Below, in pieces: positions 3,733 to 57,887 of a DNA stretch of 64,000 nucleotides. The first letter of the stretch is position 1. Every line of letters starts with the position of its first letter. The stretch covers positions 186,001 to 250,000 of the forward strand of contig CAKZYA010000058.1 of NCBI GenBank assembly GCA_937883755.1, read 5' to 3'. The position numbers and the translations under genes are program-made. A model generated the notes under the pieces. It was not told the origin of the DNA. It did no database searches and was given only the letters and a program-made list of their open reading frames with translations. This DNA is from an uncultured Flammeovirgaceae bacterium (GTDB lineage: Bacteria > Bacteroidota > Bacteroidia > Cytophagales > Cyclobacteriaceae).

Positions 3733-3817
3733 AGAGGGTTGGCGGAGTGGTCGAACGCGGCGGTCTTGAAAACCGTTGTACCGCGAGGTACCGGGGGTTC
3801 GAATCCCTCACCCTCTG
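3733..3817 (+). tRNA. tRNA-Ser (anticodon TGA)
   Basis: An 85-nt tRNA with a long variable arm. The acceptor strands AGAGGGT (3733-3739) and ACCCTCT (3810-3816) pair over 7 bp, G3817 is the discriminator, and CCA is not encoded. The anticodon loop CTTGAAA gives UGA, and the T-loop is TTCGAAT. The 3' end from 3804 is the left boundary of the genomic island to the right. The tRNA remains intact after the insertion. Confidence 0.95.
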
Positions 3818-3818
3818 C
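3798..3818 (+). repeat. attL-like direct repeat in tRNA-Ser 3' end
   Basis: The T-arm and acceptor 3' strand of tRNA-Ser recur at 25061-25081, with 15 identical bases (3804-3818 and 25067-25081) and 2 mismatches over 21 bases. This is the expected footprint of tyrosine-integrase insertion at a tRNA 3' end. A shorter, weaker copy is at 34776-34788. Confidence 0.8.
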
Positions 3819-4021: not shown

Positions 4022-6439
4022 TTGAGCCACATTGACAAAAAGAGTCTTTCAGAGAGAGACATCTGTACTAAGTTTATTACCCCTGCTATAGAACAGGCCG
4101 GATGGGATCGGCATACGCAGTTTTTAGAAGAAGTATCGTTTACCTCGGGAAGAATTTACGTAAAAGGCAAACTCACCGCTCGAGGAAAATCCAAACGAGC
4201 TGACTACATCCTTTACTACAAACCTAATATTCCTATTGCTATTGTTGAAGCTAAGGATAATAAGCACTCACTACGATCAGGTATGCAGCAGGCACTAGAG
4301 TATGCCGAAATGCTGGATATTCCCTGCGTGTTTAGTAGTAACGGAGATGGTTTTCTATTTCACAACCGAGCTTCTGCCGACGTGACAATTGAGCAAGAGC
4401 TTTCTTTAGATGATTTTCCTACCCCTGTCCAATTGTGGGAAGTGTACAAACAATACAAAGGAATTACGACGGAAGAACAAGAGCGTATTGCCCTTCAGGA
4501 TTACTATCTGGATGGCACTGATCGGAGGCCTCGCTACTACCAACAGATTGCTGTCAACCGTACGGTAGAAGCGATTGCCAAGGGGCATAACCGGGTACTG
4601 CTCGTCATGGCTACTGGTACCGGTAAGACCTACACGGCTTTTCAAATCGTCTACCGTCTGTGGAAAGCCGGAGTGAAGAAACGCATCTTATTTTTAGCCG
4701 ACCGCAATGCGCTTATTGACCAGACGCGACGCGGGGACTTCAAACACTTGCAAGATGTGATGACAGTAGTACAAAACCATACTGTAGACAAAAGCTACGA
4801 GGTATACTTAGCATTATATCAGGGGCTAACCGGTTCGGATGAAGCCCAAAATATTTACCGGCAGTTTAGTAAAGATTTTTTCGACCTGATCGTCGTGGAC
4901 GAGTGCCATCGAGGTAGTGCTAAAGCGGATAGCGCGTGGCGAGAAGTTTTGTCTTACTTTACTTCGGCATCTCAGCTGGGGCTCACCGCGACTCCCAAAG
5001 AGACGACGGATGCCAGCAATAGCGAATACTTTGGTGATCCTATTTACACTTACTCTCTACGACAAGGTATTCAGGACGGGTTCTTAGCACCCTACCGCGT
5101 CGTTCGCGTAGGATTGAATGTTGATCTGGAAGGTTGGCGTCCTGAGCGAAATAAGCGCGATAAGGGCGGGGTTTTAGTAGAAGATCGGATTTACAATACG
5201 AAGGACTACGACCGTAAGCTAGTGATCGATGAACGAACGGATGTAGTTGCTAGAAAGGTCTCTGAGTTTCTCAAAGGGTATGACCGCCACGCTAAGACGA
5301 TCATTTTCTGCCAGGATATAGACCATGCGGAGAGAATGCGCTCGGCGATTGTTCGCCACAATGCTGACCTAGCTGTTCAGAACTCCAAATACGTGATGCA
5401 GATCACCGGCGATAATCAGGAAGGAAAACGGGAACTGGATAACTTTATCAATCCTGAAGAAGCTTATCCGGTCATTGCGACGACCTCAGAATTGATGACG
5501 ACGGGCATCGACGCCCAGACCTGCAAAGTCATCGTGTTGGATAGTAATATCAACTCCATGACCAAATTCAAGCAGATCATAGGGCGAGGTACCCGGATCA
5601 ATGAGGAATACGGTAAGATGTACTTTACTATTCTGGATTTTCGTAATGTGACGAAGCTGTTTGCCGACCCTAATTTTGACGGTGATCCGATTCGGGTGAA
5701 ACCACTTGATGAAGAAACGGATTTAGGTACGCTGATTGATGAAGAAGAAAATGATGAGCAACCCCTGGTAGACGAAGAAACCGAAGAAGAAATTATCATA
5801 GAACCTCCTACAATTCGCTACCCAACGTTGCCCGGTACTTCGGGTGTACAAGAGCCGCGAGAAAAGGTTATTGTAAATGGAGTGGACGTTACTATTCTGG
5901 TTTCAAGGGAGATCCACTTTGATAAAGATGGTAAACCCATTACTACTAATCTGACCGACTATACCAGAGAACTAATTACCGGCCAATACGCTACGCTGGA
6001 TGATTTTATTAACCGTTGGAATCAGGCCGATCAGAAGCAGGCGATTATTGACGAACTGGAAAAGGAAGGAGTGTTGGTAGATGCTCTGCGCGAATCGGTT
6101 AACAATGAAGTAGATTTGTTTGATCTGATTTGCCACGTAGCTTATGATCAACCCCCGTTAAGTCGTAAAGAGCGGGCTATTAATGTCAAGAAACGAGATT
6201 ACTTCACTAAGTACGGTGAGCAGGCACGACGGGTATTAGAAGCTCTATTAGATAAATACGCTGACGAAGGTATTACCGACATAGAATCAATGGAGGTACT
6301 GAAAGTAAAGCCGATTGCCGATCATGGCACTTTGTTAGAAATTGTTAATTATTTTGGTGGTAAAAAGGAATACAAAGCAGCAGTTAAAGAATTAGAAAAC
6401 GAATTATATCAAACCGGGTCTCGAAAGACTGGAGCCTAA
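4022..6439 (+). CDS. hsdR: Type I restriction enzyme, R subunit
   Basis: The motor and nuclease subunit of a type I restriction-modification complex, which translocates and cleaves DNA lacking the host methylation. The 805-residue protein has an N-terminal PD-(D/E)xK nuclease (D61, E76-A-K78), then SF2 helicase motifs: Walker A ATGTGKT (197-203), DECH (293-296), LTATP (321-325) and QIIGRGTRI. A C-terminal HsdR domain that binds the methylase follows. The start is a TTG at 4022: an in-frame stop lies 12 bp upstream and the first internal ATG would delete the nuclease. It heads the hsd operon, 13 bp before the next gene. Confidence 0.95.
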   Translation: MSHIDKKSLSERDICTKFITPAIEQAGWDRHTQFLEEVSFTSGRIYVKGKLTARGKSKRADYILYYKPNIPIAIVEAKDNKHSLRSGMQQALEYAEMLDIPCVFSSNGDGFLFHNRASADVTIEQELSLDDFPTPVQLWEVYKQYKGITTEEQERIALQDYYLDGTDRRPRYYQQIAVNRTVEAIAKGHNRVLLVMATGTGKTYTAFQIVYRLWKAGVKKRILFLADRNALIDQTRRGDFKHLQDVMTVVQNHTVDKSYEVYLALYQGLTGSDEAQNIYRQFSKDFFDLIVVDECHRGSAKADSAWREVLSYFTSASQLGLTATPKETTDASNSEYFGDPIYTYSLRQGIQDGFLAPYRVVRVGLNVDLEGWRPERNKRDKGGVLVEDRIYNTKDYDRKLVIDERTDVVARKVSEFLKGYDRHAKTIIFCQDIDHAERMRSAIVRHNADLAVQNSKYVMQITGDNQEGKRELDNFINPEEAYPVIATTSELMTTGIDAQTCKVIVLDSNINSMTKFKQIIGRGTRINEEYGKMYFTILDFRNVTKLFADPNFDGDPIRVKPLDEETDLGTLIDEEENDEQPLVDEETEEEIIIEPPTIRYPTLPGTSGVQEPREKVIVNGVDVTILVSREIHFDKDGKPITTNLTDYTRELITGQYATLDDFINRWNQADQKQAIIDELEKEGVLVDALRESVNNEVDLFDLICHVAYDQPPLSRKERAINVKKRDYFTKYGEQARRVLEALLDKYADEGITDIESMEVLKVKPIADHGTLLEIVNYFGGKKEYKAAVKELENELYQTGSRKTGA

Positions 6440-6452
6440 AAACTACTTAACT

Positions 6453-7355
6453 ATGAAGATCTGGCGAATTAATCTTAAATCCGCTGCCAAAGCGGGGGTG
6501 AACCCTCGTGAATTTTGCCTTAACAATGGTATTGTTGGAGTGGGATGGCCTATAGAAACTGCCGAATCTGAAATTGACTGGCAAACATACGAGGAACAAG
6601 CCAAACTTACCTATCCTAACAGTCAAGGTTTTCAGCGGGCACTGAAAGCATTTTATCATAAAATGCAGATTGATGATTTAGTCTGGACACGGGATACCAA
6701 AGGAGAATACTATATAGGAAGAATTACTAGTGACTGGAGATACGATACGTCAAACGAATGTAGAAATGCGGATATTCACAATATCCGCTCGTGTGAATGG
6801 CACAAAGTAGGAACAGTGGAGAAAGTTCCGGGTAAAGTGGTAAGTAGTTTCATTCCAAGGGCAACAGTTCAGGCCGTCTCAAACACTACAGTTCTAAATT
6901 ACTCAAAGATTCAATACAATAAACTATCAGAAACACCTTATTACGCAGCAGAAAGTCAAAAAGTGCAAGATGTTTTTTCATTAATATCTGATGACGATTG
7001 TGAAGACTTAGTTGCTTTGTACTTACAATACAAACGAAACTATATGGTAGTACCTAGCACCTGCAAAAAGAGTACTGCTAATTATGAGTACGTGTTGGTA
7101 CATAAAGAAACTGGTAAGTCAGCAGTTGCTCAGGTTAAAAAGGGAAATACATCACTATATGCCTCGGATTTTAACGATGTGGATGCTAAAGTTTACCTTT
7201 TTACCACTGAAGGCAAATATGAAGGGAATTTTCAGGATAGTATTCATATACTCACTAAAGATGAGATAGAAGCTTTTGTATACGAACACCTTCCCATACT
7301 GCCTGAAAAAATTAGGGTGTGGGCTGAAATGACTCAGCAAGTATTCTTGGCCTAA
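6453..7355 (+). CDS. Putative EVE-like/Mrr-like restriction endonuclease
   Basis: A 300-residue protein embedded between hsdR and hsdM. The N-terminus (WRINLKS..., then NNGIVGVGWP near residue 25, then DLVWTRD and YYIGRI near residue 80) resembles PUA/EVE-type domains that read modified bases. The C-terminus looks like a Mrr/PD-(D/E)xK nuclease: E184 in the DCEDLVALYLQ helix and an AQVKKG strand with Q227-x-K229. The central acidic residue is unclear, perhaps E212, so activity is uncertain. Inference: a modification-dependent (type IV-like) nuclease that complements the type I system. Both domain calls are by eye. Confidence 0.5.
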   Translation: MKIWRINLKSAAKAGVNPREFCLNNGIVGVGWPIETAESEIDWQTYEEQAKLTYPNSQGFQRALKAFYHKMQIDDLVWTRDTKGEYYIGRITSDWRYDTSNECRNADIHNIRSCEWHKVGTVEKVPGKVVSSFIPRATVQAVSNTTVLNYSKIQYNKLSETPYYAAESQKVQDVFSLISDDDCEDLVALYLQYKRNYMVVPSTCKKSTANYEYVLVHKETGKSAVAQVKKGNTSLYASDFNDVDAKVYLFTTEGKYEGNFQDSIHILTKDEIEAFVYEHLPILPEKIRVWAEMTQQVFLA

Positions 7356-7412
7356 CTTCCTTTTTTGTATTTTGCCGATTCAATCTTTTTAGCAAAGCAA
7401 CAAACCCTATCT

Positions 7413-8951
7413 ATGAGCAACCTTTCGGGAATTGTGAAAAGCATTCGAGATATTATGCGGGAAGATCGCGGTGTTAGCGGCGATGGGCAGCGTATTGAGC
7501 AACTGGCCTGGATGCTGTTTCTCAAAATTATGGACGATAAGGATCAGGAACTGGAGGTGATGGACGATGACTATGTATCGCCCATTCCGGAGAAATTTCA
7601 GTGGCGCAACTGGGCGGCGAATGATGAAGGTATGACCGGCGAGGAATTGCAGAACTTTATCGACGCCCCCGACGGACTGTTTGATACGCTGAAGAATCTA
7701 CCGGCGGATAATCCTCGCTCGTATATGGTGCGGGAAGTGTTTGAGGGCAACAATAACTACATGAAAAGCGGGATCAACCTGCGCAAAGTGGTCAATAAGC
7801 TGAACGAGATTGATTTTAACGTAGCAACCGAACGGCATATGTTCGGGGACATTTACGAGTCTATTCTGAAGGAACTGCAAAGTGCCGGAGCCTACGGCGA
7901 GTTTTATACGCCGCGTGCCGTGACGCAGCTTATGACGGATATGATCAATCCTAAGCTGGGCGAGAAAGTACTTGATCCGGCCTGTGGTACCGGTGGTTTT
8001 CTAGCGGGAGTGGTAGAACATCTGAAGGATCAGGCTAATAGTGTAGAAGAGCGCAATAGCATTCAGGACAACGTACGCGGTTGGGAGTGGAAACCTCTGC
8101 CGTACGTATTGGCGACGACCAACCTGATATTGCACGACGTAGAGCTGCCTAACATTACCTACCGCGACGCCCTGGATAAACCACTGACTGAGTACCGCCG
8201 CAGCGAACGCGTCGACGTGATTCTGGCCAATCCACCCTTCGGCGGAACGGTGGCCAACAACAACGAAAACAACTTTCCGCAGAACTACCGCACCAAAGAA
8301 AGTGCCGACCTCTTTTTGGTGCTGATGATGCATATGCTCAAGGAGCACGGGCGCGCCGCGATTGTGTTACCTGATGGTTCGCTGACCGGCGAGGGGGTGA
8401 AGCAGCGCATTCGCGAAAAGTGGCTGACAGATTGTAATCTGCATACCATTATCCGCTTACCCAACTCGGTGTTTTCCCCCTACGCGACGGTGGCGACGAA
8501 CCTGCTATTCTTTGAGAAAGCCCCTTCAGTAGACCCGGCGGCGGCAACCGCGGTGGTTTCTCGTCAACCGAACGGAAAGTCTACGAATGGACAAACCGAC
8601 CTATTTGGAACTCAGGGAGCAACGCCTAATAACCAAAGCTTTGCGACGCAAACCATCTGGTACTACGAGCATACCCTGCCCGAAGGCCAAAAAAGCTACA
8701 GTAAAACCAAACCTATCCGCCGGGAAGAATTTAAGCCGATTGAAGATTGGTGGAATAACCGTCAGGAAAGCGAACGAGCCTGGAAGGTAGATATCCAGAC
8801 GATTGTAGATCGTGGCTATGACTTGGATATCAAGAATCCATATCGAGAAGAGGAAGAAGAATTTGTGAGTAGTACTGAGCTGATTCAAAAGCTAGCCGTT
8901 TCCTTCGACCGCAGTAAAGAATTATTAGATGCACTTAGAGAAGAAATTTAA
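7413..8951 (+). CDS. hsdM: Type I DNA methyltransferase, M subunit
   Basis: The adenine-N6 methyltransferase subunit, which with HsdS methylates the recognition site and with HsdR forms the restriction complex. The product is 512 residues from the ATG at 7413; an in-frame TTG at 7365 is less likely. An N-terminal helical HsdM domain is followed by SAM motif I DPACGTGG (188-195) and catalytic motif IV NPPF (273-276). A glutamine/asparagine-rich insert occurs near residue 400. The stop overlaps the hsdS start by one base (TAATG), a sign of translational coupling. Confidence 0.96.
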   Translation: MSNLSGIVKSIRDIMREDRGVSGDGQRIEQLAWMLFLKIMDDKDQELEVMDDDYVSPIPEKFQWRNWAANDEGMTGEELQNFIDAPDGLFDTLKNLPADNPRSYMVREVFEGNNNYMKSGINLRKVVNKLNEIDFNVATERHMFGDIYESILKELQSAGAYGEFYTPRAVTQLMTDMINPKLGEKVLDPACGTGGFLAGVVEHLKDQANSVEERNSIQDNVRGWEWKPLPYVLATTNLILHDVELPNITYRDALDKPLTEYRRSERVDVILANPPFGGTVANNNENNFPQNYRTKESADLFLVLMMHMLKEHGRAAIVLPDGSLTGEGVKQRIREKWLTDCNLHTIIRLPNSVFSPYATVATNLLFFEKAPSVDPAAATAVVSRQPNGKSTNGQTDLFGTQGATPNNQSFATQTIWYYEHTLPEGQKSYSKTKPIRREEFKPIEDWWNNRQESERAWKVDIQTIVDRGYDLDIKNPYREEEEEFVSSTELIQKLAVSFDRSKELLDALREEI

Positions 8952-10279
8952 TGGATTGGCCAACTAGACCTTTAAAAGAACTTTGTAGAATAGAGAAAGG
9001 AGCTATCGGAATTACCAAGGCGAAACCGGGACCATATCCTTTGGTGACTTTAGCCGAAGAACGAAAAGAACATAATGATTACCAATTTGATACAAAGGCG
9101 GTAATTATTCCTCTAGTTTCCTCTACAGGGCATGGGCATGCGAGCATAAAGCGAATCCATTACCAGGAAGGCAAGTTCACTGTCGGAACTATTCTTTGTG
9201 CGGTGGTCCCAAATAATGAATCTGAATTACACCCCTTATTCCTCTATCATTATTTGGATGTATTCAAAGAGCAGCTATTAGTACCTCTCATGAGAGGAAT
9301 GGCGAATGTTACGTTACCCATGAGAAGTTTGGGTGACTTGGAGATTCCTGTTCCGCCCATAGATGATCAATTAGTATGGATTGAGAAATTTAAGTCAGTT
9401 AATCATAAAGAGACAAAGCTTTTAAACGAACTAAGCCATCAACAAACCCTACTAAAGCAACTGCGCCAAGCCATATTGCAGGAAGCCGTACAAGGTAAAC
9501 TTACCGAACAGTGGCGGTCAGCCCATCCCGAGGTAGAACCAGCATCGGCACTGCTGGAACGAATCCAAGCCGAAAAAGCCCAGCTGGTGAAAGAAAAGAA
9601 GATCAAAAAATCCAGACCCCTTTCTCCAATCACTCCCGACGAAATCCCCTTTGACCTTCCCGAAGGTTGGGTTTGGTGTAGGCTGGGCGCAGCAGCATTT
9701 AATGTAGAATATGGTACTTCCCAGAAAGCAAGTCTAGATAGTAAAGGAGTGCCAGTCTTGCGAATGGGTAATTTATTGAATGGTAACATCGTATACGATA
9801 ATCTCAAATATGTTCAGAGCACAATAAAAGATCTACCGAGACTCTATCTCAATAAAGGAGACTTGTTGTTTAATAGAACTAATAGCTATGAACTAGTAGG
9901 AAAATCGGGTGTATTTACCCTAGATAAATCTCTTACTTTTGCTTCCTATTTGATAAGAGTAACGTTCGAGGGCAAGATAGTTTCTGAATACGTAAATGCG
10001 TGGATCAATTCTTTAGTATGCAGAGAGACTCAGTTAGAACCTGGGATTATTCAGCAAAACGGTCAGGCTAACTTCAATGGAACAAAATTGAAAAATATTT
10101 TACTTCCTCTTCCCTCGCTTTCAGAACAAAAAGCTATCGTAGAAAAAGTAGAAAGCTTATTAGCGAAAGTCAGTCAGTTGGAAGCGGAAGTGCAGCAGAA
10201 TCGGCAGTACGCAGAGCAGTTGCTGCAATCGGTGCTTCGGGAGGTGATGAATCCGGCAGCTAAAGAAACCACTGCTTAA
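8951..10279 (+). CDS. hsdS: Type I specificity subunit
   Basis: HsdS picks the bipartite target sequence for both methylation and cleavage. The 442-residue protein has the normal two-half layout: a first target-recognition domain (residues 1 to about 140), a coiled-coil spacer with LRQAILQEAVQGKLTEQW, a second recognition domain starting at LPEGWVWCRLG near 237, and a final coiled coil. Both halves look intact. No second hsdS or inverted repeat is nearby, so no shufflon is evident. It overlaps the next gene by one base. Confidence 0.93.
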   Translation: MDWPTRPLKELCRIEKGAIGITKAKPGPYPLVTLAEERKEHNDYQFDTKAVIIPLVSSTGHGHASIKRIHYQEGKFTVGTILCAVVPNNESELHPLFLYHYLDVFKEQLLVPLMRGMANVTLPMRSLGDLEIPVPPIDDQLVWIEKFKSVNHKETKLLNELSHQQTLLKQLRQAILQEAVQGKLTEQWRSAHPEVEPASALLERIQAEKAQLVKEKKIKKSRPLSPITPDEIPFDLPEGWVWCRLGAAAFNVEYGTSQKASLDSKGVPVLRMGNLLNGNIVYDNLKYVQSTIKDLPRLYLNKGDLLFNRTNSYELVGKSGVFTLDKSLTFASYLIRVTFEGKIVSEYVNAWINSLVCRETQLEPGIIQQNGQANFNGTKLKNILLPLPSLSEQKAIVEKVESLLAKVSQLEAEVQQNRQYAEQLLQSVLREVMNPAAKETTA

Positions 10280-16962: not shown

Positions 16963-17136
16963 GAAGTGATTTAAACTTTTAAGAAAAGTTATGCGCTAAG
17001 GTTCTGATTTTCAATTCATTAAAATAAATAATTTGCTCAGATTTTTAGTGCAAATTATATTGTGCTTTGTATCACTTAAACTTACTGAGTGTGAAGCTAT
17101 TCTTATGAATCTAATACCAAAAGTTTAAATCACTTC
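16963..17136. mobile_element. MITE-like element, copy 1
   Basis: A 174-bp non-coding element with perfect 18-bp terminal inverted repeats (16963-16980 and 17119-17136; GAAGTGATTTAAACTTTT). It is flanked by a 3-bp duplication, ATG at 16960-16962 and 17137-17139. It is about 85% similar to the copy at 24139-24311. No transposase frame is present, so it would be moved in trans by an IS with matching ends, possibly IS5-type given the 3-bp duplication (inference). It is intergenic here. Confidence 0.85.
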
Positions 17137-17429: not shown

Positions 17430-18059
17430 ATGCACTATGGATATATCCGTGTAAGCACCTCGGAACAGACGGTAGAATCGCAGAAGAACCTGATTTCCCG
17501 CTACTGCGTAGATCATAAGATTGGCATTGACGAATGGATTGCTTTGGAAATGTCTTCGCGCAAAGACCTACGGCAGCGTAAGATTCAACCCCTACTGGAT
17601 AGGCTCACCCCGGATGATACGGTGATTGTATCCGAACTCTCCCGGCTAGGCCGCTCTATCAAAGAAGTGCTCTTCATCATTGAACAGATGGTAGAGCAAA
17701 AGCGAGCCCGTCTTATCTTGATCAAGCAGAATATCGTTCTTGACCCCCATAACCGTAAGGATGTTACCAACAAAGTACTAATCACCATCTTTTCTATGAT
17801 GGCTGAGCTGGAGCGCGACTTTATCTCCGAACGAACCAAAGAAGGCTTAAAAGCCCGCAAAGCTAAGGGGATTACACTTGGTAAGCCTAAAGGTACCATT
17901 CAAGCTTCAATGTACGATCAAGACCGCGATAAGATTATGCACCTGCACCAAATGGGGGTACCCTTGCAAACTATTATCAAAACCCATCTAGGCTACGGCA
18001 AGTATCTCTCGCTAAAAAACTATATTGAGAAGCGGAAGACTACCGTAGCCTTGAGTTAG
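17430..18059 (+). CDS. Serine recombinase (resolvase/invertase family)
   Basis: A 209-residue small serine recombinase. The catalytic serine is S9 in YGYIRVSTSEQ; SELSRLGRS and the MMAELERDFISERTKEGL helix are conserved, and a C-terminal HTH-like region follows KGITLGKPKGT. The length matches Pin/Hin-type enzymes. It would act at short palindromic sites, possibly those just upstream. It converges with the coiled-coil HTH protein gene, with 7 bp between them. No invertible segment with inverted repeats was identified. Confidence 0.9.
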   Translation: MHYGYIRVSTSEQTVESQKNLISRYCVDHKIGIDEWIALEMSSRKDLRQRKIQPLLDRLTPDDTVIVSELSRLGRSIKEVLFIIEQMVEQKRARLILIKQNIVLDPHNRKDVTNKVLITIFSMMAELERDFISERTKEGLKARKAKGITLGKPKGTIQASMYDQDRDKIMHLHQMGVPLQTIIKTHLGYGKYLSLKNYIEKRKTTVALS

Positions 18060-19092: not shown

Positions 19093-20355
19093 CTAATCTA
19101 GATTATCCAGGTATTCTTTAAGCTTATGAAGTCTATCCAAGTACGGAAGGCAAATTTCTAAACCTCTGTATTGTTCTATTAATGCGAGGTGATTATCTAT
19201 GAACTGTTTTGGGGTTAAAATAATCAGGTGACTTTCCAGCCTTATTGGTGAGTTAGGTATCAAACAGCTCTTAAAAAATGATTTTAAACTTCTGATTATT
19301 TGACCCTGATTTACCCCTTTGTTTAAGATAGAAATGCTATGTTCTTCTTCATGAATGGCCGCTTCACTGTTTTTTTCTATTGGCACTTCCTCTTTTTTCC
19401 AGACGTTATCTTCATTTTCAACATGTGAAATATAAGTTTTTATTCTCCTTCTATCAGGATAATTATGCTGTAAGGCTTGATTATTTCTACTAAGTGATAT
19501 CGGTGTTAGTTGACCATACTGTAATCCTTTGGCTATTGTTTTATAAGCATTCTTGTGGTCACGAACATTTCTCTTATTGTCAATTGCATTTCGTAATGCT
19601 AATTCAGCTTCTTCATAATCAACCTCCCCACCGGCTACATATCCACCCAGTAATCTAGATGCATTTAGTAGTACACTGTGTTTTTCACCGTCTTGAGCTT
19701 CTTCTATCATTTTCAGTGCGGTTGAGATAGGATTGTAAGTCTCATAGTTCTGATATTTCTCACTTCTACTATTATATTTTCTACTTATCCTTCGTTGAGG
19801 TACATGATACTTACGCAAAGGTATAGCGTCTAAATTCCAATATGCTTCAGTGTCATATGAATAATAACGTAAACGGCTTACGTCCGAACAGGCTTTATCT
19901 ATGAATATTCCGTAACATTCAAATGATTTGTGCAGATAATTAAAGTGTTGTTTGTGCTTGTCAGGATGTGCGATTCGTATTAGCATCCAATATCCTTTAC
20001 CAGAAACTGAAATTCCACAATAAGCTACTTCTGGAAGCTTTTTAAATTCTTCTTTTAGGTTATCGAAGTTGGATAGATGCTTGTTTTCAGCAAAATCTAT
20101 ATCCACAGCTATAAAACCACTGTGCCGAACTAATGAAGATGCTTTTCGCTGAGAAAAGACGCCACTAGGCGTAATACATGGTAGTATTTTTTTTGCCTCT
20201 TTGCGTTTCTGGTCGCCCTCTACATTTCGTATTTTGTCTACTTGAGTTTTAAACTCACTTGTAGTTAACCACTCAGCTAGAGTTATTTGATCTGCTGGAT
20301 TATTGCAGAAGCAGTTCTCGAAGAGGCTGACCGAAACATCAAAAATATTGTTCAT
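19093..20355 (-). CDS. BT4734/VirE N-terminal domain protein
   Basis: A 420-residue protein with the BT4734-like (VirE N-terminal) domain at about residues 30-185: SGFIAVDIDFAE, then GKGYWMLIRI, then DVSRLRYYSYD. The fold is primase-like, and such proteins accompany DUF3987 helicase-like proteins in Bacteroidota islands. A helical region follows (EEAELALRNAI), and the C-terminal 120 residues are not recognised. A role in element replication is inferred from family and from the DUF3987 gene just upstream (gap 93 bp). Confidence 0.72.
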   Translation of the reverse strand: MNNIFDVSVSLFENCFCNNPADQITLAEWLTTSEFKTQVDKIRNVEGDQKRKEAKKILPCITPSGVFSQRKASSLVRHSGFIAVDIDFAENKHLSNFDNLKEEFKKLPEVAYCGISVSGKGYWMLIRIAHPDKHKQHFNYLHKSFECYGIFIDKACSDVSRLRYYSYDTEAYWNLDAIPLRKYHVPQRRISRKYNSRSEKYQNYETYNPISTALKMIEEAQDGEKHSVLLNASRLLGGYVAGGEVDYEEAELALRNAIDNKRNVRDHKNAYKTIAKGLQYGQLTPISLSRNNQALQHNYPDRRRIKTYISHVENEDNVWKKEEVPIEKNSEAAIHEEEHSISILNKGVNQGQIIRSLKSFFKSCLIPNSPIRLESHLIILTPKQFIDNHLALIEQYRGLEICLPYLDRLHKLKEYLDNLD

Positions 20356-20448: not shown

Positions 20449-22041
20449 CTAGCTTAAAAAAAGCTGAGGGTTGATATGATATTCAAAGCTAGGATTGCGT
20501 CCACTTGAGGCAGTCCGTTCGGGTTCGTATTCGTACAACCAGTTTAACTCACAAAGTTTGTCTAGTGCTGCCTGAATAGTATTTTTGTCCTGCTGTAGCA
20601 TGCTGTAATTTTTTCGTACCACATCCCGTAGCTTAAAGGGATTGGGTAGGTCTTGTTTTAAAATTTTTCGGCTTAATACGGTGGTGGCTTGTTGACCTTG
20701 CCCGAGACCCTCATAAATCCTCGTAGCGTGACTTTCTAGATATTCACACCATTCTTTCGCCATATAAAAGGCACTTGGACTTACTGGCCCAGAAGCCTCA
20801 CTTTCGGCAATATCTATGATATGAAAAATTAGAGCAAGACTAGGCAAAAGGCTTCGGTATTTGCCGAAATGTTCTTGTTGGATAGGACTCAAATCTGGAC
20901 TCTCAAGTTTAATCTCTAACGCTTCAGCCCAATCAAGATAGCTCGATTGAATATTTTTATCAAACCTGAAGTATGGCGTACTTTCGTACTGATCAGTTAC
21001 CGCCCCTAATCTTCCATAGTCAGCTTCAGCAATTTTTTGATAAAGCTTAAAAGCATCTTCTTTTGCCTGTTTATTTACCTCTTTGTCCATTCTTCCCGTC
21101 CTGCGAAAATAATCCGGATAGATTAGTAATTGAAGCCTTTGAATTAATCCATCGTTGTTTCCTTTGATTGCACTAAAAAATAACTTGGCTAGTTTATCAG
21201 GTTGAATTGTTCCAAAAAGAGATAAACAGAAACTTTTCACAAATAGAGAACCACCGCTGACCCGATCTCTTCTGTAATCGCTATTACCATTCCAACCAGT
21301 CAGGTAGGCGGCTCTATCTTCTTCGCGCCCTGACTTGTCAAAGCTACGTAATAGGCCATCCAACTCATCACGAATAACAATGAAGCCCTGAGGGTTTTCC
21401 TTAGCTATCATGATGATCTTCTCCATCGTTGAATCCATTATAATAAACCTTTTTTCAGTAGGCTCTTCTGGTTCTTCTTCATGTAGCTGTTCTAATTTAC
21501 ATCGATATGCAATTTTATTAATCTTACCTTTTTTAAGCTCAGTGTCTACCTTCTTACAACTGTCTTCGTAGATTGTTTTTTCTATTGAATAGTCCTGTTG
21601 TTTTTTTTTGTAGCTTTCCCTTTCTATGGTTTCAAGCCGTACAAGTGGATTTAAAGCAACTTTCATTGCTGGGCTTTTTAACCTAGATGGTGCGGCGACA
21701 ATGCCTCCGTAGAGGTTTGGTATGATCGAGAAGTTATCGCGTTGCTTCGGGCGTATCTCACAGCGAGTACCAATTAATGATCCAATAGCAACTATGGCTG
21801 GAACTGCAATAAAGTCTAGTGGTACTTCCATCCGTTTTGCCTCGTCTGAAACCCATTCTCGTAGAGGTATTGGAATCATCTCTAAAGTCATAGGTAGAAC
21901 CTCAGGTAGAGAATTGACTTTTAGTTCTGGTCTGTTATTACGAAAATGTTCTTCAACTTCTTCTGGAATAGAAGGACTGTGGTTATTTAGACTAGTCCCA
22001 TTAGGAATAAATCCAAAGGTTTTTTGTAAATTGTCAAACAT
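20449..22041 (-). CDS. DUF3987 (YfjI-type) replication-associated protein
   Basis: A 530-residue DUF3987 protein. The N-terminal region has PLDFIAVPAIVAIGSLIGTRCEI followed by a GGIVAAPSRLKSP loop in the place of a Walker A motif; the centre has FIVIRDELDGLLRSFDK and SLFGTIQPDKL. Family members resemble ATPases of mobile elements and often follow a primase-like gene. The Walker A here is not canonical (PSRLKSP rather than GxxxxGKS/T), which is usual for the family. Probably part of the replication module. Confidence 0.75.
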   Translation of the reverse strand: MFDNLQKTFGFIPNGTSLNNHSPSIPEEVEEHFRNNRPELKVNSLPEVLPMTLEMIPIPLREWVSDEAKRMEVPLDFIAVPAIVAIGSLIGTRCEIRPKQRDNFSIIPNLYGGIVAAPSRLKSPAMKVALNPLVRLETIERESYKKKQQDYSIEKTIYEDSCKKVDTELKKGKINKIAYRCKLEQLHEEEPEEPTEKRFIIMDSTMEKIIMIAKENPQGFIVIRDELDGLLRSFDKSGREEDRAAYLTGWNGNSDYRRDRVSGGSLFVKSFCLSLFGTIQPDKLAKLFFSAIKGNNDGLIQRLQLLIYPDYFRRTGRMDKEVNKQAKEDAFKLYQKIAEADYGRLGAVTDQYESTPYFRFDKNIQSSYLDWAEALEIKLESPDLSPIQQEHFGKYRSLLPSLALIFHIIDIAESEASGPVSPSAFYMAKEWCEYLESHATRIYEGLGQGQQATTVLSRKILKQDLPNPFKLRDVVRKNYSMLQQDKNTIQAALDKLCELNWLYEYEPERTASSGRNPSFEYHINPQLFLS

Positions 22042-22168: not shown

Positions 22169-22471
22169 TTATACTGATCCATTCGGAGTATTATCATTAA
22201 GATACCGCTCAATAGAAGCTTTTTCAATCAGCGTCTTTCGTCCAGATTTAGCATAACTAAGATTTCCTTCCCGCATGAGTTTGTGAACATGCCCCTTACT
22301 GCACTGAAGTTTTTTCTGTGCTTGAGAAATTGTGCAGTGTGTGTTTTCGTCAGAGTCGTATAATTTTTCACTAAGAACCCCTTGGTAATCTTCCAATGCG
22401 TTGAATATGCAATCGTAAATCATTGCCTTTAATTCTGACTCATCCATACGTGTTATAATTTCTCTTTGCAT
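22169..22471 (-). CDS. Excisionase-like helix-turn-helix protein
   Basis: A 100-residue small DNA-binding protein. The C-terminal half is a MerR/excisionase-type HTH_17: CTISQAQKKLQCSKGHVHKLMREG, then LSYAKSGRKTLIEKASIERYL. Proteins of this type in Bacteroidota islands act as excisionase or as repressor of the module. It sits between the integrase side and the replication genes, and an array of 10-bp repeats lies upstream of it. Confidence 0.8.
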   Translation of the reverse strand: MQREIITRMDESELKAMIYDCIFNALEDYQGVLSEKLYDSDENTHCTISQAQKKLQCSKGHVHKLMREGNLSYAKSGRKTLIEKASIERYLNDNTPNGSV

Positions 22472-23503: not shown

Positions 23504-24894
23504 TTAGCCTACTAAAGCCTTCCTAACAAGAGCCATTTGGGATACCTTTGGAATATTGACGTATTTTGAAAAACTCCGATAGTCTTTATGACCGGTAAAT
23601 TGCATTACTACCTCAGCAGGAACACCTTTTAATAGTAAATTCGTGGCAAATGTACGTCGGCCAGTATGGGTGGTAATGAGTTGAAATTTTGGAAAAGTAT
23701 GAGTGGTTTTTGCTTTCCCCTTATATTTGTTTACTTCGAATGGTTCATTTATCCCTACTTGTCTACATAGTTCTTTCACATACAGATTCATTTTTTGATT
23801 TGTGATAGGATGAATTTCCTTTGACAATAGTTGACTTGTAATCTCATTTGCTTCGCTTGTTAGAGGAATATCTACAAACTCACCTGTTTTTTCTTGACGA
23901 ATGTGAATTAAAGGATTGCCCTCATGGTCTTTCTTTAAGTGCTCAGATTTAATCCGACTGTAATCTGAATAGCGTAAACCGGTCAAGCAGGATAATAGGA
24001 ATAGTTGTCTGACATTATAGAGATAGCCTTTTGCTTCATAATTCCGGAGGTTGTTAAGATCTGCGTCTGACATTACTACTTTAATATCATCAGGTTGTTG
24101 AATGGGTGTAAAATGTTTGTAATCAGTATTATCAGTAAAAAGTGATTTAAACTTTTTAGAGAATATTTATGCTAAAGCTTTGATTTTCAATTCATTAAAA
24201 CGAATAATTTGCTCAGCTTTTGATACAATTTATGCTATACTTTGTATCACTTAAACTTACTGAGTATGAAGCTATTCCTATGAATCTAATACCAAAAGTT
24301 TAAATCACTTCTAAGTTTAAATTTCACACACCAATTCAAAAAAGATTTGAAATTATCTATGTACTTAGCAGTAGTCTGAGTATTTATATTTGCGTACTCA
24401 TAAAACCAGGATTGAAGGGAATTCAAGCAGCGGGAATCAATTTCATCTAGATGAAAGGGCTGATTTTGATGTTTTTCAAATGATCGTAAGTGGTTTTCTA
24501 AAGCATTGTACTTTACAAAACTCCTTTTCGCAAAATGATTTTTCTTAGCGGTCAAATATTTTCTCCAACTATCCCAGAAATTGTTCTTAGCCTTTGGTAT
24601 TTTTCTAGGAAGTAACTTAGCCTTTAAATAATTACTATCTGGTTTGATGCCCTGGGATAACGCATTTAAATATACATCTAAAGCCTTCTTCTTATATGCC
24701 CTTAAATATCTATTGAGTAATATCGCATTTGGATTGGCTGATAGCACGGTTTGAGTTCTTTTACTCCAATGTTTTGGGTTAATTGATACACGAGTATACA
24801 GTTTAATGTAAACATTCTTGCCATCTCGGATAACGCATACAACTCTAGTTGAAGTTGCTGAAGGTCTTTTTAAGATTAGGATCGAAGTAGCCAT
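23504..24894 (-). pseudogene. Tyrosine integrase split by MITE insertion
   Basis: Two frames of one integrase: an N-terminal arm/core-binding part (24894 to about 24315) and a catalytic part (to 23504). The catalytic set is present: R in TGLRYSD, HTGRR, GHKDYRS and the nucleophile Y in FSKYVN. The break is the 173-bp element at 24139-24311. Deleting it plus one TAA target copy (176 bp) joins KFKL to TDNTDY in frame and gives a 404-residue protein, the normal size. The ATG at 24894 begins MATSILIL. The catalytic fragment has its own ATG at 24073, but without the core-binding domain activity is unlikely. Confidence 0.88.
24139..24311. mobile_element. MITE-like element, copy 2, inside integrase
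   Basis: A 173-bp element similar to 16963-17136 with the same terminal inverted repeats (17 of 18 bases; the first base is A rather than G). It is flanked by a 3-bp duplication TAA at 24136-24138 and 24312-24314. It has no coding capacity. Its insertion interrupts the integrase after codon KFKL and adds a stop (TAG) a few codons into the element. Confidence 0.88.
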
Positions 24895-25060
24895 AATGAT
24901 GAGTTTCACTAAAGTTAGCAAAAACTATAATGGGGTAACACTTGGGGTAACAAAAAAATACACTTCAGTGAATAATGATGAATCTCTACACACTAAAAAA
25001 CAGGGAATTTGGTCAATCAAGGGACATGCGAATACATCATAGTGCACTGGAATGCATAAG

Positions 25061-25081
25061 TTCAAGTCCCTCACCCTCTGC
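25061..25081 (+). repeat. attR-like copy of tRNA-Ser 3' end
   Basis: TTCAAGTCCC followed by TCACCCTCTGC matches the T-loop to acceptor end of tRNA-Ser at 3798-3818 with two mismatches. TTCAAGT is still a valid T-loop, so this is probably the original tRNA 3' end displaced by the island. It lies 167 bp from the integrase start. Confidence 0.8.
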
Positions 25082-25190: not shown

Positions 25191-25225
25191 TTCTTGATTT
25201 CTTAGTAGGGCACCGAATAAGCTAA

Positions 25226-25500
25226 AAGCGATGGAAACGGGCTTACAAAGAAAAAGATGAAGAAGGATTAATCAACAGCAAGCCTTGTCCTGAAAACCCC
25301 AAGCTCAGAACGCTGCTTCCCATAGAGGAGATAATTATCCACTTACGGAAGACCTATCATTTAGGGCAAAAGCGGATCATTCAGTCCGCCAATGCGGTGG
25401 CATTGCGAAGATTTGGGAATTAGGCATGTGTATATCCGGCCTCGCAGTCCGAACCTCAATGGGAAGGTAGTCGCAGTGGAACTGAGCGATATCATGTTAC
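25226..25500 (+). pseudogene. IS481-like transposase remnant
   Basis: A degraded transposase. The first frame reads KRWKRAYKEKDEEGL...PIEEIIIHLRKTYHLGQKRI and stops at 25421. A different frame then gives VYIRPRSPNLNGKV, the signature C-terminal motif of IS481-type transposases. The catalytic core between them is missing. The rest of the interval 25191-25650 holds no gene I can support. Confidence 0.6.
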
Positions 25501-25650
25501 TGATAGTGAAAGAAAAATGTTATTTTCGTTCGTTTATCCTAGTTTTGATTGACACAACTATAGATTAATCATTGCTCTCATCTAAGTGTTGTCAATAGTT
25601 TGTTGAGTAATAGCTTATCTTACTGAGTATTCAAATATGAACATAAAGTA

Positions 25651-27378
25651 ATGCTGGATATTGTTTATGAGTTTTTGTTTTGGGTATTTTTTATCGGCAT
25701 AAATGCTATAGCATACAGCATTGTATATATCCTTCATAGAGACGAAAAAGCATCCTTCTGGCCATATATTTCAACATGGAAGTTGCAACAGAAACTCGGA
25801 CTAGTAGCAAGTGAGAATTTGGATCCTTTCCGATATTGTGTTGAACTATCGGTACTCTTGCTTGTATGTCGCGTTTGGTTTCATCCAATGCTAGCTTCTG
25901 TGGCGACAATCTTATATGTATTTCTACTAGTCTTTAATCTTTATCAGTATGCCATACGGAAAGTCTACTATACAGATCCCTTTCTGTTTAATGATCTTAA
26001 GCTTATCAAAAACGCTTTTGTCATCGTTTGGTCTGAGAGTAAATCAAGATTGATCATAGCGATACCTAGTATACTGGTCATTACGGTAGGCATTTACCAG
26101 TTTTTTCAATGGTTTTTTACTTTTTTTAATGATTTAGGCACCTCTGATGTGTTTTATGTGATTTCTAGTCTATGGCTAGTTATGGTGGTTTACAGTATTT
26201 ATAAGTTCAAAGGACTTTATAAAGAATACCCAAAAGATATCTTTTTGAGATACCATTACATCTTAGTTGAGTCTTTTATGAACCTCAAAAGGAGTTGGGA
26301 GCACTATCAGATGAGTAAGTTAAAAGTGGGTCAGAAATACCAGGATAGCCGGGCTGGCATCACCATAGAACCCATTCATCAACTACCGAACCTGTATTTT
26401 TTGCTTGTAGAGTCATATGGCTCCTACTTCTATAAAAACAATAGCGGAAAAGAGGTTTCATTTGAAACGTTGAGGAATTTTGAAAAAGATTTGGTTGAGA
26501 ATGGCTATAAATGTGTTTCTGCCTTTTCTGAATCTACCACCATTGGTGGTCAATCATGGCTCACCTATACTTCTATGCTATTCGGATACAGGATCGATAA
26601 TAATACGCTCTTCGAGAATCATTTGAATGACGAGAACTTTCGCAAAAGCAAAGGTTTGTTACAGTTTTTGCAATCATTAGGCTACCACAATTACAACCTA
26701 AATCCTATTACTCCCATTGTCGGGCTGCATGTGCCCTACGATGAAATGCGTTCCTTGTACGCAATAGATACCTGGTTCTTGGCAGATGACATTGATTATT
26801 CAGGTGACCAATATGGGTTTGGACAGTGTGCACCTGACCAATATAGCTTAAATAAAGCAATGGAGATGATCCAACGCGACGAACAATCACCCTATACCTT
26901 GTTTTACTTAACCAAAAACTCACACACACCATTTATCGCTCCTCCTGTTGTGGATAATTGGAAAGACTTGAATAAATCAGGGGAAAAACAACGGCACATT
27001 CATGAAGGGTTTTTTAAAAACCCAAGCCCCGAAGATTATCAGAATGCCATCAAGTATGAATTTGATATAATACGTCAGTTTATAAAGGACTATGGTAAAC
27101 AAGAAGATATCTTCATTGTGATGGGAGACCATCAGCCACCGATCTTAGCAAATAAGGAGCAGCATGGATTAACTACCCCGGTTCATATTATCAGTCAAAA
27201 TGATGAGTTCCTATCCGAGTTCCATAAATATGGCTTTACTAAAGACCTTATAGAGGCTAAAGACCCAACAATTAAACATGAGGCATTTTATTCTATATTT
27301 CTAAATGCTTTTGCGAATCAATTCTCCGGCAACCCTAAAAATATACCTGAATATGAGCCCGAAGGAATTAAACTCTGA
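25651..27378 (+). CDS. LTA-synthase-like membrane phosphatase-superfamily enzyme
   Basis: A 575-residue protein with about five N-terminal transmembrane segments (residues 5-190) and a periplasmic alkaline-phosphatase/sulfatase domain. Motifs include LLVESYGS (251-258), the nucleophile region SESTTIGG (293-300) and GDHQPP near residue 500. The family includes lipoteichoic acid synthases and phosphoethanolamine or phosphoglycerol transferases. Next to a CDP-alcohol phosphotransferase and a flippase, a role in adding a phospho-alcohol group to an envelope glycan or lipid is a reasonable inference. It overlaps the next gene by 26 bp. Confidence 0.78.
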   Translation: MLDIVYEFLFWVFFIGINAIAYSIVYILHRDEKASFWPYISTWKLQQKLGLVASENLDPFRYCVELSVLLLVCRVWFHPMLASVATILYVFLLVFNLYQYAIRKVYYTDPFLFNDLKLIKNAFVIVWSESKSRLIIAIPSILVITVGIYQFFQWFFTFFNDLGTSDVFYVISSLWLVMVVYSIYKFKGLYKEYPKDIFLRYHYILVESFMNLKRSWEHYQMSKLKVGQKYQDSRAGITIEPIHQLPNLYFLLVESYGSYFYKNNSGKEVSFETLRNFEKDLVENGYKCVSAFSESTTIGGQSWLTYTSMLFGYRIDNNTLFENHLNDENFRKSKGLLQFLQSLGYHNYNLNPITPIVGLHVPYDEMRSLYAIDTWFLADDIDYSGDQYGFGQCAPDQYSLNKAMEMIQRDEQSPYTLFYLTKNSHTPFIAPPVVDNWKDLNKSGEKQRHIHEGFFKNPSPEDYQNAIKYEFDIIRQFIKDYGKQEDIFIVMGDHQPPILANKEQHGLTTPVHIISQNDEFLSEFHKYGFTKDLIEAKDPTIKHEAFYSIFLNAFANQFSGNPKNIPEYEPEGIKL

Positions 27379-56830: not shown

Positions 56831-56921
56831 GGTAAGCGGTGACTTATTTATAAAGAAGGTAGGAATCATAATTCACAGCTTAAGGGCGAACTGATTTAAG
56901 CTTTTACTTAATAAATCTATC

Positions 56922-57177: not shown

Positions 57178-57798
57178 TTAACTCAGTAAGGAATTTAGGT
57201 CTAGTCCAGTGAGCTTATCCACGTGCTGGCTGATCTTTTCAATATCCCAATCCCACCAGCGGATATTGAGAAGCTTCTCAATAGTGGCATCGTCAAAACG
57301 CTTTTTAATCAGCTGGGCGGGGTTGCCACCTACGATGGTATACGGATCTACATCTTTGGTAACAGTGGCGTTAGTTGCAATGATTGCCCCATCGCCTACC
57401 TGCACTCCGGGCATGATGGTAACATTATGCCCAATCCACACATCGTTTCCGATTACGGTATCGGTCTTCACTGGATAGCCTTTGCCCTCCATTGCGTGTT
57501 CCCAACCCGAAAATATGGCGAAGGGGTAGGTAGATATTGCCTGCGACAGATGGTTAGCTCCGTTCATGATGAAGGTTGCCCCGGAGGCGATCATACAGAA
57601 CTTACCGATAATGAGCTTGTCCCCCACAAAATCAAAGTGATACTTTACATTCTTCTCAAAATCATGAACATCCTCAAAGTCATCGTAGTACGTGTAGTCG
57701 CCTACAATGATATTGGGGTTCTGAATGATGTTTTTCAGAAAGCACAGACGATCGTAATGCTTCAGTGGGAAGGTTTGATCCTTGTCGGGGTAAGCCAT
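57178..57798 (-). CDS. Vat/CatB-like xenobiotic acetyltransferase
   Basis: A 206-residue left-handed beta-helix acetyltransferase. It follows the Vat (streptogramin A) acetyltransferase pattern through the chain: VGDYTYYDD, GKFCMIASGATFIMNGANH (catalytic histidine), FSGWEHAM, GNDVWIGHNVTIMPGVQVGDGAIIA and VGGNPAQLIKKRF. The ATG at 57798 is chosen over an upstream TTG. Whether it acts on a drug, a sugar or another acceptor cannot be told from sequence. Confidence 0.82.
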   Translation of the reverse strand: MAYPDKDQTFPLKHYDRLCFLKNIIQNPNIIVGDYTYYDDFEDVHDFEKNVKYHFDFVGDKLIIGKFCMIASGATFIMNGANHLSQAISTYPFAIFSGWEHAMEGKGYPVKTDTVIGNDVWIGHNVTIMPGVQVGDGAIIATNATVTKDVDPYTIVGGNPAQLIKKRFDDATIEKLLNIRWWDWDIEKISQHVDKLTGLDLNSLLS

Positions 57799-57887
57799 AG
57801 CGCACACAGGTTTAGACAAACCTAAGAATAGCTATTTTTTCTTCTGAAGAAAAACTTGTGGTATTAAAAACAGGAATCTAGAACAGC

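Follow-up and report, generated by a model that had tools for sequence, protein, structure and literature searches.

A putative IS5-type MITE splits the integrase gene of a tRNA-Ser island in an uncultured member of the Cyclobacteriaceae

In a stretch of 64,000 nucleotides from an uncultured Flammeovirgaceae bacterium (hereafter the window), the tyrosine-recombinase integrase gene of a tRNA-Ser island is found as two reading frames separated by 173 bp of unrelated DNA. What is this intervening sequence, how could it have come there, and can the island still leave the chromosome by its own enzyme? The reading that we put forward, and consider very probable as a whole, is that an IS5-type MITE mobilised in trans has split the integrase gene, and that the tRNA-Ser island should not excise by itself. 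The interrupted gene and the inserted element are organized as follows.

24315..24894, minus strand: N-terminal part of the integrase, with arm-type DNA-binding and SAM-like core-binding domains
24312..24314, no strand: target duplication TAA, right copy
24294..24311, minus strand: right terminal inverted repeat
24139..24311, no strand: 173-bp non-coding putative MITE, found in 13 identical copies genome-wide
24139..24156, plus strand: left terminal inverted repeat of 18 bp, with a mismatch at the outermost base
24136..24138, no strand: target duplication TAA, left copy
23504..24138, minus strand: C-terminal part of the integrase, with the catalytic domain (Phage_integrase) and catalytic motifs

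The N-terminal frame (24286-24921) matches the arm and SAM-like domains and the C-terminal frame (23504-24073) the Phage_integrase domain of Pfam, the families represented across the two halves being PF17293, PF13102 and PF00589. An alignment with homologues contains the motifs TGLRYSD, EKT, HTGRR, GHKDY and KYVNI, which we take to be the R-K-H-R-H-Y catalytic motifs of tyrosine recombinases. Domains and motifs thus bear out the full catalytic set that a first-pass annotation of this DNA had reported. The same annotation had proposed that removal of the element with one TAA joins the frames into a 404-residue recombinase, and its arithmetic was right: with these bases set aside, the only stop is found at the end of the frame, which comprises 413 codons from a TTG or 404 from an ATG. 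With the element in place, the integrase frame meets a stop about ten codons beyond the junction, within the inserted DNA, and the arm and core-binding domains are therefore separated from the catalytic domain. No significant match to either half was found among solved structures.

Homologues of the C-terminal part were detected in 79 of the 116 genomes of the family. For the comparison across the junction, 25 of 30 loci were used, leaving out the own locus, two loci with internal stops, one short and one apparent duplicate. The C-terminal part matches all 25 homologous frames and the N-terminal part 23 of them. The four closest homologues (54%, 49%, 48% and 40% identity over 412, 412, 411 and 404 columns, respectively) are single open frames of 414-482 codons that align with the joined integrase from one end to the other, with no break at the junction; in the two closest, the two matches are separated by a single residue, which corresponds to the split codon. 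The first-pass annotation had named this comparison as the one that could overturn its reading; since the closest homologues are continuous across the junction, with nothing that corresponds to the 173 bp, the reading stands. The same alignments bear on the idea that both open frames serve in their present form, as a split or truncated recombinase that has taken on another function. The C-terminal frame does contain an internal ATG at 24073 together with the catalytic domain, and its N-terminal counterpart runs open up to the stop inside the element, but frames remain open after any recent insertion and the closest homologues are all single frames, so that we regard such a use as highly improbable.

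We then turned to the inserted sequence. Its perfect inverted repeat is 17 bp long (24140-24156 and 24294-24310); the outermost base, read inwards, is an A on the left and a G on the right, which gives 18 bp with one mismatch. The element has a G+C content of 25% and contains no ORF of 60 aa or more. A search of the genome (7.6 Mb in 75 contigs) identified 15 copies: 13 show 100% identity along the full 173 bp, one 87% and one, on contig C57, 76%. The 87% copy is located in the same island:

16963..17136, no strand: older copy of the same MITE family, flanked by ATG on both sides

Each of the 13 identical copies has flanks of its own, and the sites are thus unrelated. An exact 3-bp duplication was found at 11 of these 13 copies, in eight different sequences (AAT, GCT, TAA, ATA, ATT, GAT, TAT and CAT); one of the 15 copies (L015) was skipped in this count for its inexact ends. 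Since the duplicated 3-mers are varied, the family duplicates 3 bp of its target without TAA specificity, and targeting restricted to TAA or TNA is ruled out. The TAA duplication noted in the first-pass annotation is present on both sides here, but it does not extend to the family, in which any 3 bp may be duplicated. As for the two remaining identical copies, one (C34:53538) has a 4-bp match instead, and the other (C63:76-248), near a contig start and without duplication, possibly reflects recombination between copies or a misjoin. At three other identical copies, an open frame continues in phase from one flank to the other, over 233, 297 and 440 codons, figures that have no formal control beside them.

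The terminal repeat, with up to two mismatches, occurs at 63 places in the genome, compared with 2 for a control read backwards. A lone sequence of this type is present in the window at 56889-56905 (two mismatches), with no partner found within the window. Among 38 other genomes, similarity to the element at the DNA level was detected only in G002, of the same genus (66% over 162 bases), and as a 31-base match to the end in G031; a 176-bp element with similar ends was located through these ends in G003, also of the same genus. The plasmid sequences searched with the 173-bp element gave no match.

The insertion had been described as recent, and we call it recent as well, because the duplication is exact, 13 copies are identical, and both integrase halves are open and align to homologues throughout. 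The identical copies and the exact duplication support a recent burst, with the caveat that short-read assemblers can homogenise copies by writing one consensus into collapsed repeats. Carried further, this caveat would make the identity of the 13 copies, or even the insertion itself, an assembly artefact. Contigs of this assembly break about 55 bp inside a related insertion sequence (IS), so longer repeats were collapsed and a 173-bp repeat could have received a single consensus; the C63 copy, near a contig start and lacking a duplication, would also fit. Each copy nevertheless has its own flanks, 11 of the 13 have their own duplication, the two diverged copies were resolved as different, and both flanks at the integrase match one homologous gene. 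We therefore give hardly any credence to an artefact. The exact 3-bp duplication and the exact phase could also be taken as signs of a reversible switch, in which precise loss of the MITE at a useful frequency restores the integrase and the island is locked only temporarily. Precise loss would indeed suffice to restore the frame, but such features are common to any recent insertion with a target duplication, and the assembly contains the filled site only. In the literature, the term "precise excision" does not appear in the available text of PMC6382973, and what the corresponding text of PMC10969869 says of excision concerns transposition in general. A switch thus seems very unlikely, and the split by a recent insertion is the reading that we follow below.

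The copies of the MITE account for only some of the terminal repeats in the genome, and many of the others lie about 50 bp from contig ends. Twenty such contig ends fall into two patterns, ten with the same repeat and ten with one base different, while further contig ends bear other variants of it. Such a picture would be expected of a short-read assembly in which some ten copies of an IS of about 1 kb have collapsed. Under this assumption, the 3-mers outside the left IS ends should recur outside the right ends, and 8 of 10 do; random 3-mers of the window gave a mean of 1.5, with none of 5,000 draws reaching 8, and the pairing fell to 2 with 4-mers and to 1 with 3-mers shifted outwards. The full-length IS is absent from this assembly, in which its ends only are found.

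A candidate for the whole element was found in G003, where a 953-bp element with matching ends encodes an IS5-type protein. This protein passes the cut-off of Pfam DUF4096 (41.8 bits, cut-off 34.3) and falls below those of DDE_Tnp_1 (20.5, cut-off 23) and of the NCBIfam IS5 model (71 bits, cut-off 110); the 953-bp copy has no target duplication and its reading frame looks damaged. A similar IS5-type protein is encoded in G022, of the same family, by a 917-bp element with both ends and an AAT duplication. The own genome contains two matches to the G003 protein, both partial and at contig ends: the match on C9 (62% over about 74 residues) lies beside a differing end, GAAGCGATTTAAAGTTTT, and that on C16 has no such terminal repeat nearby. 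With the G003 protein as the query, 5 of 12 genomes (G003 included) gave matches and 7 gave none. Terminal repeats of this type, with at most one mismatch, adjoin the matches in G003, G022, Aquimarina (G136) and Galbibacter (G139), and none lies near the match in Confluentibacter (G138).

Target duplications of 3 bp are made by IS5 subgroups including IS1031 and ISL2. The 173-bp element and the IS have little in common beyond their terminal repeats. Based on its copy number, the ends that it has in common with an IS5-type insertion sequence and its 3-bp duplications, the 173-bp element is best read as an IS5-type MITE, and we infer that an active IS5-type transposase in this genome may move it in trans. 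The coordinates and terminal inverted repeats given in the first-pass annotation are confirmed, and its reading of the element as a MITE is supported by the 15 copies, the 3-bp duplications and the IS5-type ends.

The same ends are also associated with a second group of elements. We scanned one genome per species for paired ends of the same kind enclosing, outer bases included, elements of 151-181 bp. The scan returned 64 stretches (L150-L213) from Kordia, Aquimarina, Flavobacterium, Flavivirga, Galbibacter, Saprospiraceae, Cyclobacteriaceae and others, organisms that presumably all belong to the Bacteroidota. A G is present at both ends in 63 of the 64, the 3-bp duplication is exact in 54, and 51 are 160 or 161 bp long. 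These imperfect palindromes of about 160 bp have internal sequence in common, which folds as one long hairpin (-53 kcal/mol with a z of -8 in one example). Sixty-two of the 64 are clear of any ORF of 100 codons, and 51 have an ORF on either side; the two ORFs are convergent in 18 of these 51, compared with 64 of 316 neighbouring ORF pairs at the same loci. All seven genomes without a match to the G003 protein carry elements of this group.

The structure counts exclude the ends and cover 43 of the 64 elements; the 21 others, largely further copies from genomes already represented plus two elements with large inserts, were removed by hand. Over 30 pairs, 94.4% of cells are paired, compared with 78.4% in shuffled alignments, and 22 pairs show double changes, compared with 14.1. 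The covariation score is 0.451, against 0.162 for shuffled alignments and 0.113 for the best slid version; the comparison with slid versions favours the structure, which was built on this very alignment. In 41 of the 43 elements, one strand forms the stronger hairpin. The excess of G-U over A-C, 124 to 78 in a strand-symmetric structure, was rejected as proof of selection at the RNA level and is only suggestive, because RNAalifold favours G-U by design. Matched changes could alternatively arise by repair of one arm off the other at imperfect palindromes, and template switching of this kind is mentioned in the part of PMC4060949 available to us. Rfam searches of four loci gave no match on the elements and one sub-threshold match away from them.

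A covariance model of the group gave between 6 and 149 matches per genome in 15 chosen genomes, with up to 150 candidates scored and rough E-values. When the filters were tightened, with an E-value of 1e-8 and 50 candidates scored, 8 of the 59 genomes of the order gave matches, the own genome being one of them. Here the model identified ten places (L247, L262 and L266-L273), none of which is a copy of the 173-bp element. These ten palindromes are 160-174 bp long and have a similar apical hairpin; nine begin with GAGYRYGTTTR, and eight have exact TNA duplications. The 173-bp element carries the terminal repeats of the group but differs from it in length, and the clear match between them is limited to the ends. 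The model gives it 30 and 23 bits on the two strands, compared with 138-171 for the best-listed members, low scores that we ascribe, with no separate control, to the ends. We suggest, very tentatively, that the ends could belong to an undescribed class of IS5-mobilised elements, widespread in Bacteroidota and consisting mainly of a mobile structured RNA of about 160 bp, the 173-bp element being a branch with the ends and without the core. It is doubtful, though conceivable, that the near-constant length, the compensatory changes along the stem and the conserved apical hairpin are best explained by selection for structure on one strand, i.e., as RNA. A structured RNA element present in up to more than 100 copies per genome would follow from the same speculative reading.

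The literature covered on MITEs and palindromes of Bacteroidota, with few subscription papers in it, gave no description of the 160-bp group, and none of these elements is described in the available portions of PMC4596501, PMC9769881, PMC10969869, PMC6382973, PMC3733652, PMC12542641 and PMC4060949; a 2024 paper on conserved prokaryotic MITEs is cited in PMC12542641. According to the accessible parts of these sources, the closest parallels are the following. MITEAba12 of Acinetobacter is likewise short and non-coding, with the ends of a co-resident IS (ISAba12), target duplications, near-constant length and gene inactivation by insertion, but it makes 9-bp duplications, is mostly 113 bp long and has other terminal repeats; its movement was seen in laboratory isolates, whereas that of the 173-bp element is only inferred (PMC6382973). 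MITECca01 of Cardinium, a Bacteroidota endosymbiont, has also spread, often disrupting other mobile elements, but its parent is ISCca4 of the IS982 family, its length is about 240 bp and it was reported from one strain (PMC9769881). BrickBuilt and other Porphyromonas MITEs are Bacteroidota elements with ends resembling those of IS5-family elements and differ by terminal repeats of the type GAGACC... and others, and by internal tandem repeats (PMC4596501). The 160-bp group itself resembles ERIC, RUP and the Rickettsia palindromic elements, scattered multicopy sequences that are palindromic or structured and are named in PMC10969869 and PMC3733652. These, however, come from other phyla, whereas the 160-bp group has IS5-type-like ends and 3-bp duplications.

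The consequences of the insertion depend on the island in which the integrase gene is located. The features of this island, in their order in the window, are the following.

3733..3818, plus strand: tRNA-Ser(tga), integration site of the island
3797..3818, plus strand: att repeat in the 3' end of the tRNA gene, left boundary of the island
4022..10279, plus strand: type I restriction-modification cargo (hsdR, hsdM and hsdS); a PDC-S02-like gene separates hsdR from hsdM
17430..18059, plus strand: protein with a serine resolvase N-terminal domain, within the island
19093..20355, minus strand: protein with a BT4734-like N-terminal domain, primase-like, with a weak match, below cut-off, to a primase-polymerase model
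20449..22041, minus strand: DUF3987 protein of the mobile module
22169..22471, minus strand: HTH_17 protein encoded close to the integrase, where an excisionase might be expected (putative role)
25060..25081, plus strand: second att repeat, right island boundary, with the native downstream flank from 25082

The att repeat, 22 bp with two mismatches (20/22 identical), links the 3' end of tRNA-Ser with 25060-25081. The window after 25081 matches the sequence located right after tRNA-Ser in G003 (98 of 110 bases) and, to a lesser degree, that in G001; the stretch that follows the tRNA in the window itself is a poor match to theirs. The sequence beyond 25081 is therefore the native flank, and the island extends from 3797 to 25081, about 21.3 kb. 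Other cargo comprises a HipA-like gene, a LuxR-type response regulator, a sensor kinase and the resolvase-domain protein. The gene between hsdR and hsdM (6453-7355) matches PDC-S02, a candidate defence family of PADLOC, with an E-value of 6e-115. A hexapeptide-repeat transferase gene at 57178-57819 lies outside the island.

The region beyond the native tRNA flank contains an unmatched segment, 25192-25508, up to the start of similarity to G002, possibly the remains of another insertion. An empty site was sought through the gene at 25651 and this approach was abandoned: similarity to G002 starts at 25508, with no tRNA within the 9.7 kb examined. It was the tRNA gene that led to the native site. 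In two genomes of the same genus (L232 and L233), a different tyrosine recombinase, open over 426 codons in one and apparently interrupted in the other, is found about 200-300 bp after the same tRNA-Ser, which suggests that this tRNA gene is a recurrent integration site. The regions of the three nearest integrase homologues revealed no sister island: besides the integrase, they contain only isolated weak matches (DUF3987 in one, HTH_17 in one and a short hsdM match in one).

The most probable course of events would start with the IS5-type transposase of the co-resident multicopy IS moving the MITE in trans. The MITE would have entered the integrase gene between the regions encoding the core-binding and catalytic domains, duplicating TAA, and translation from the integrase start would then end about ten codons past the junction, cutting the arm and core-binding domains from the catalytic domain. 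Because these domains are separated, the 21.3-kb island should be unable to excise by its own enzyme. The loss of its own integrase is a fair prediction from the sequence; the protein is presumably inactive and the island would be fixed in place. Could another integrase of this genome rescue it? Three further matches to the C-terminal part were found in the own genome, and since the listed one shares 34% identity over 86 residues, they seem unlikely to help in trans.

Inactivation of one element's mobility gene by another mobile element is a known kind of event, of which this is an ordinary further instance. The case is nonetheless complete, in that the element, its copies, the probable source of the transposase, the duplication, the intact homologues, the island ends and the native site are all visible. 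Compared with the first-pass annotation, our analysis adds a putative partner of the IS5 type, the variety of target sequences, precise boundaries for the island and a wider set of elements with the same ends. For the host, the insertion means that a restriction-modification island is probably frozen in its chromosome. Beyond it, the same ends mark a widespread element of Bacteroidota with a conserved hairpin, which provides a lead for testing its function and its mobilisation.
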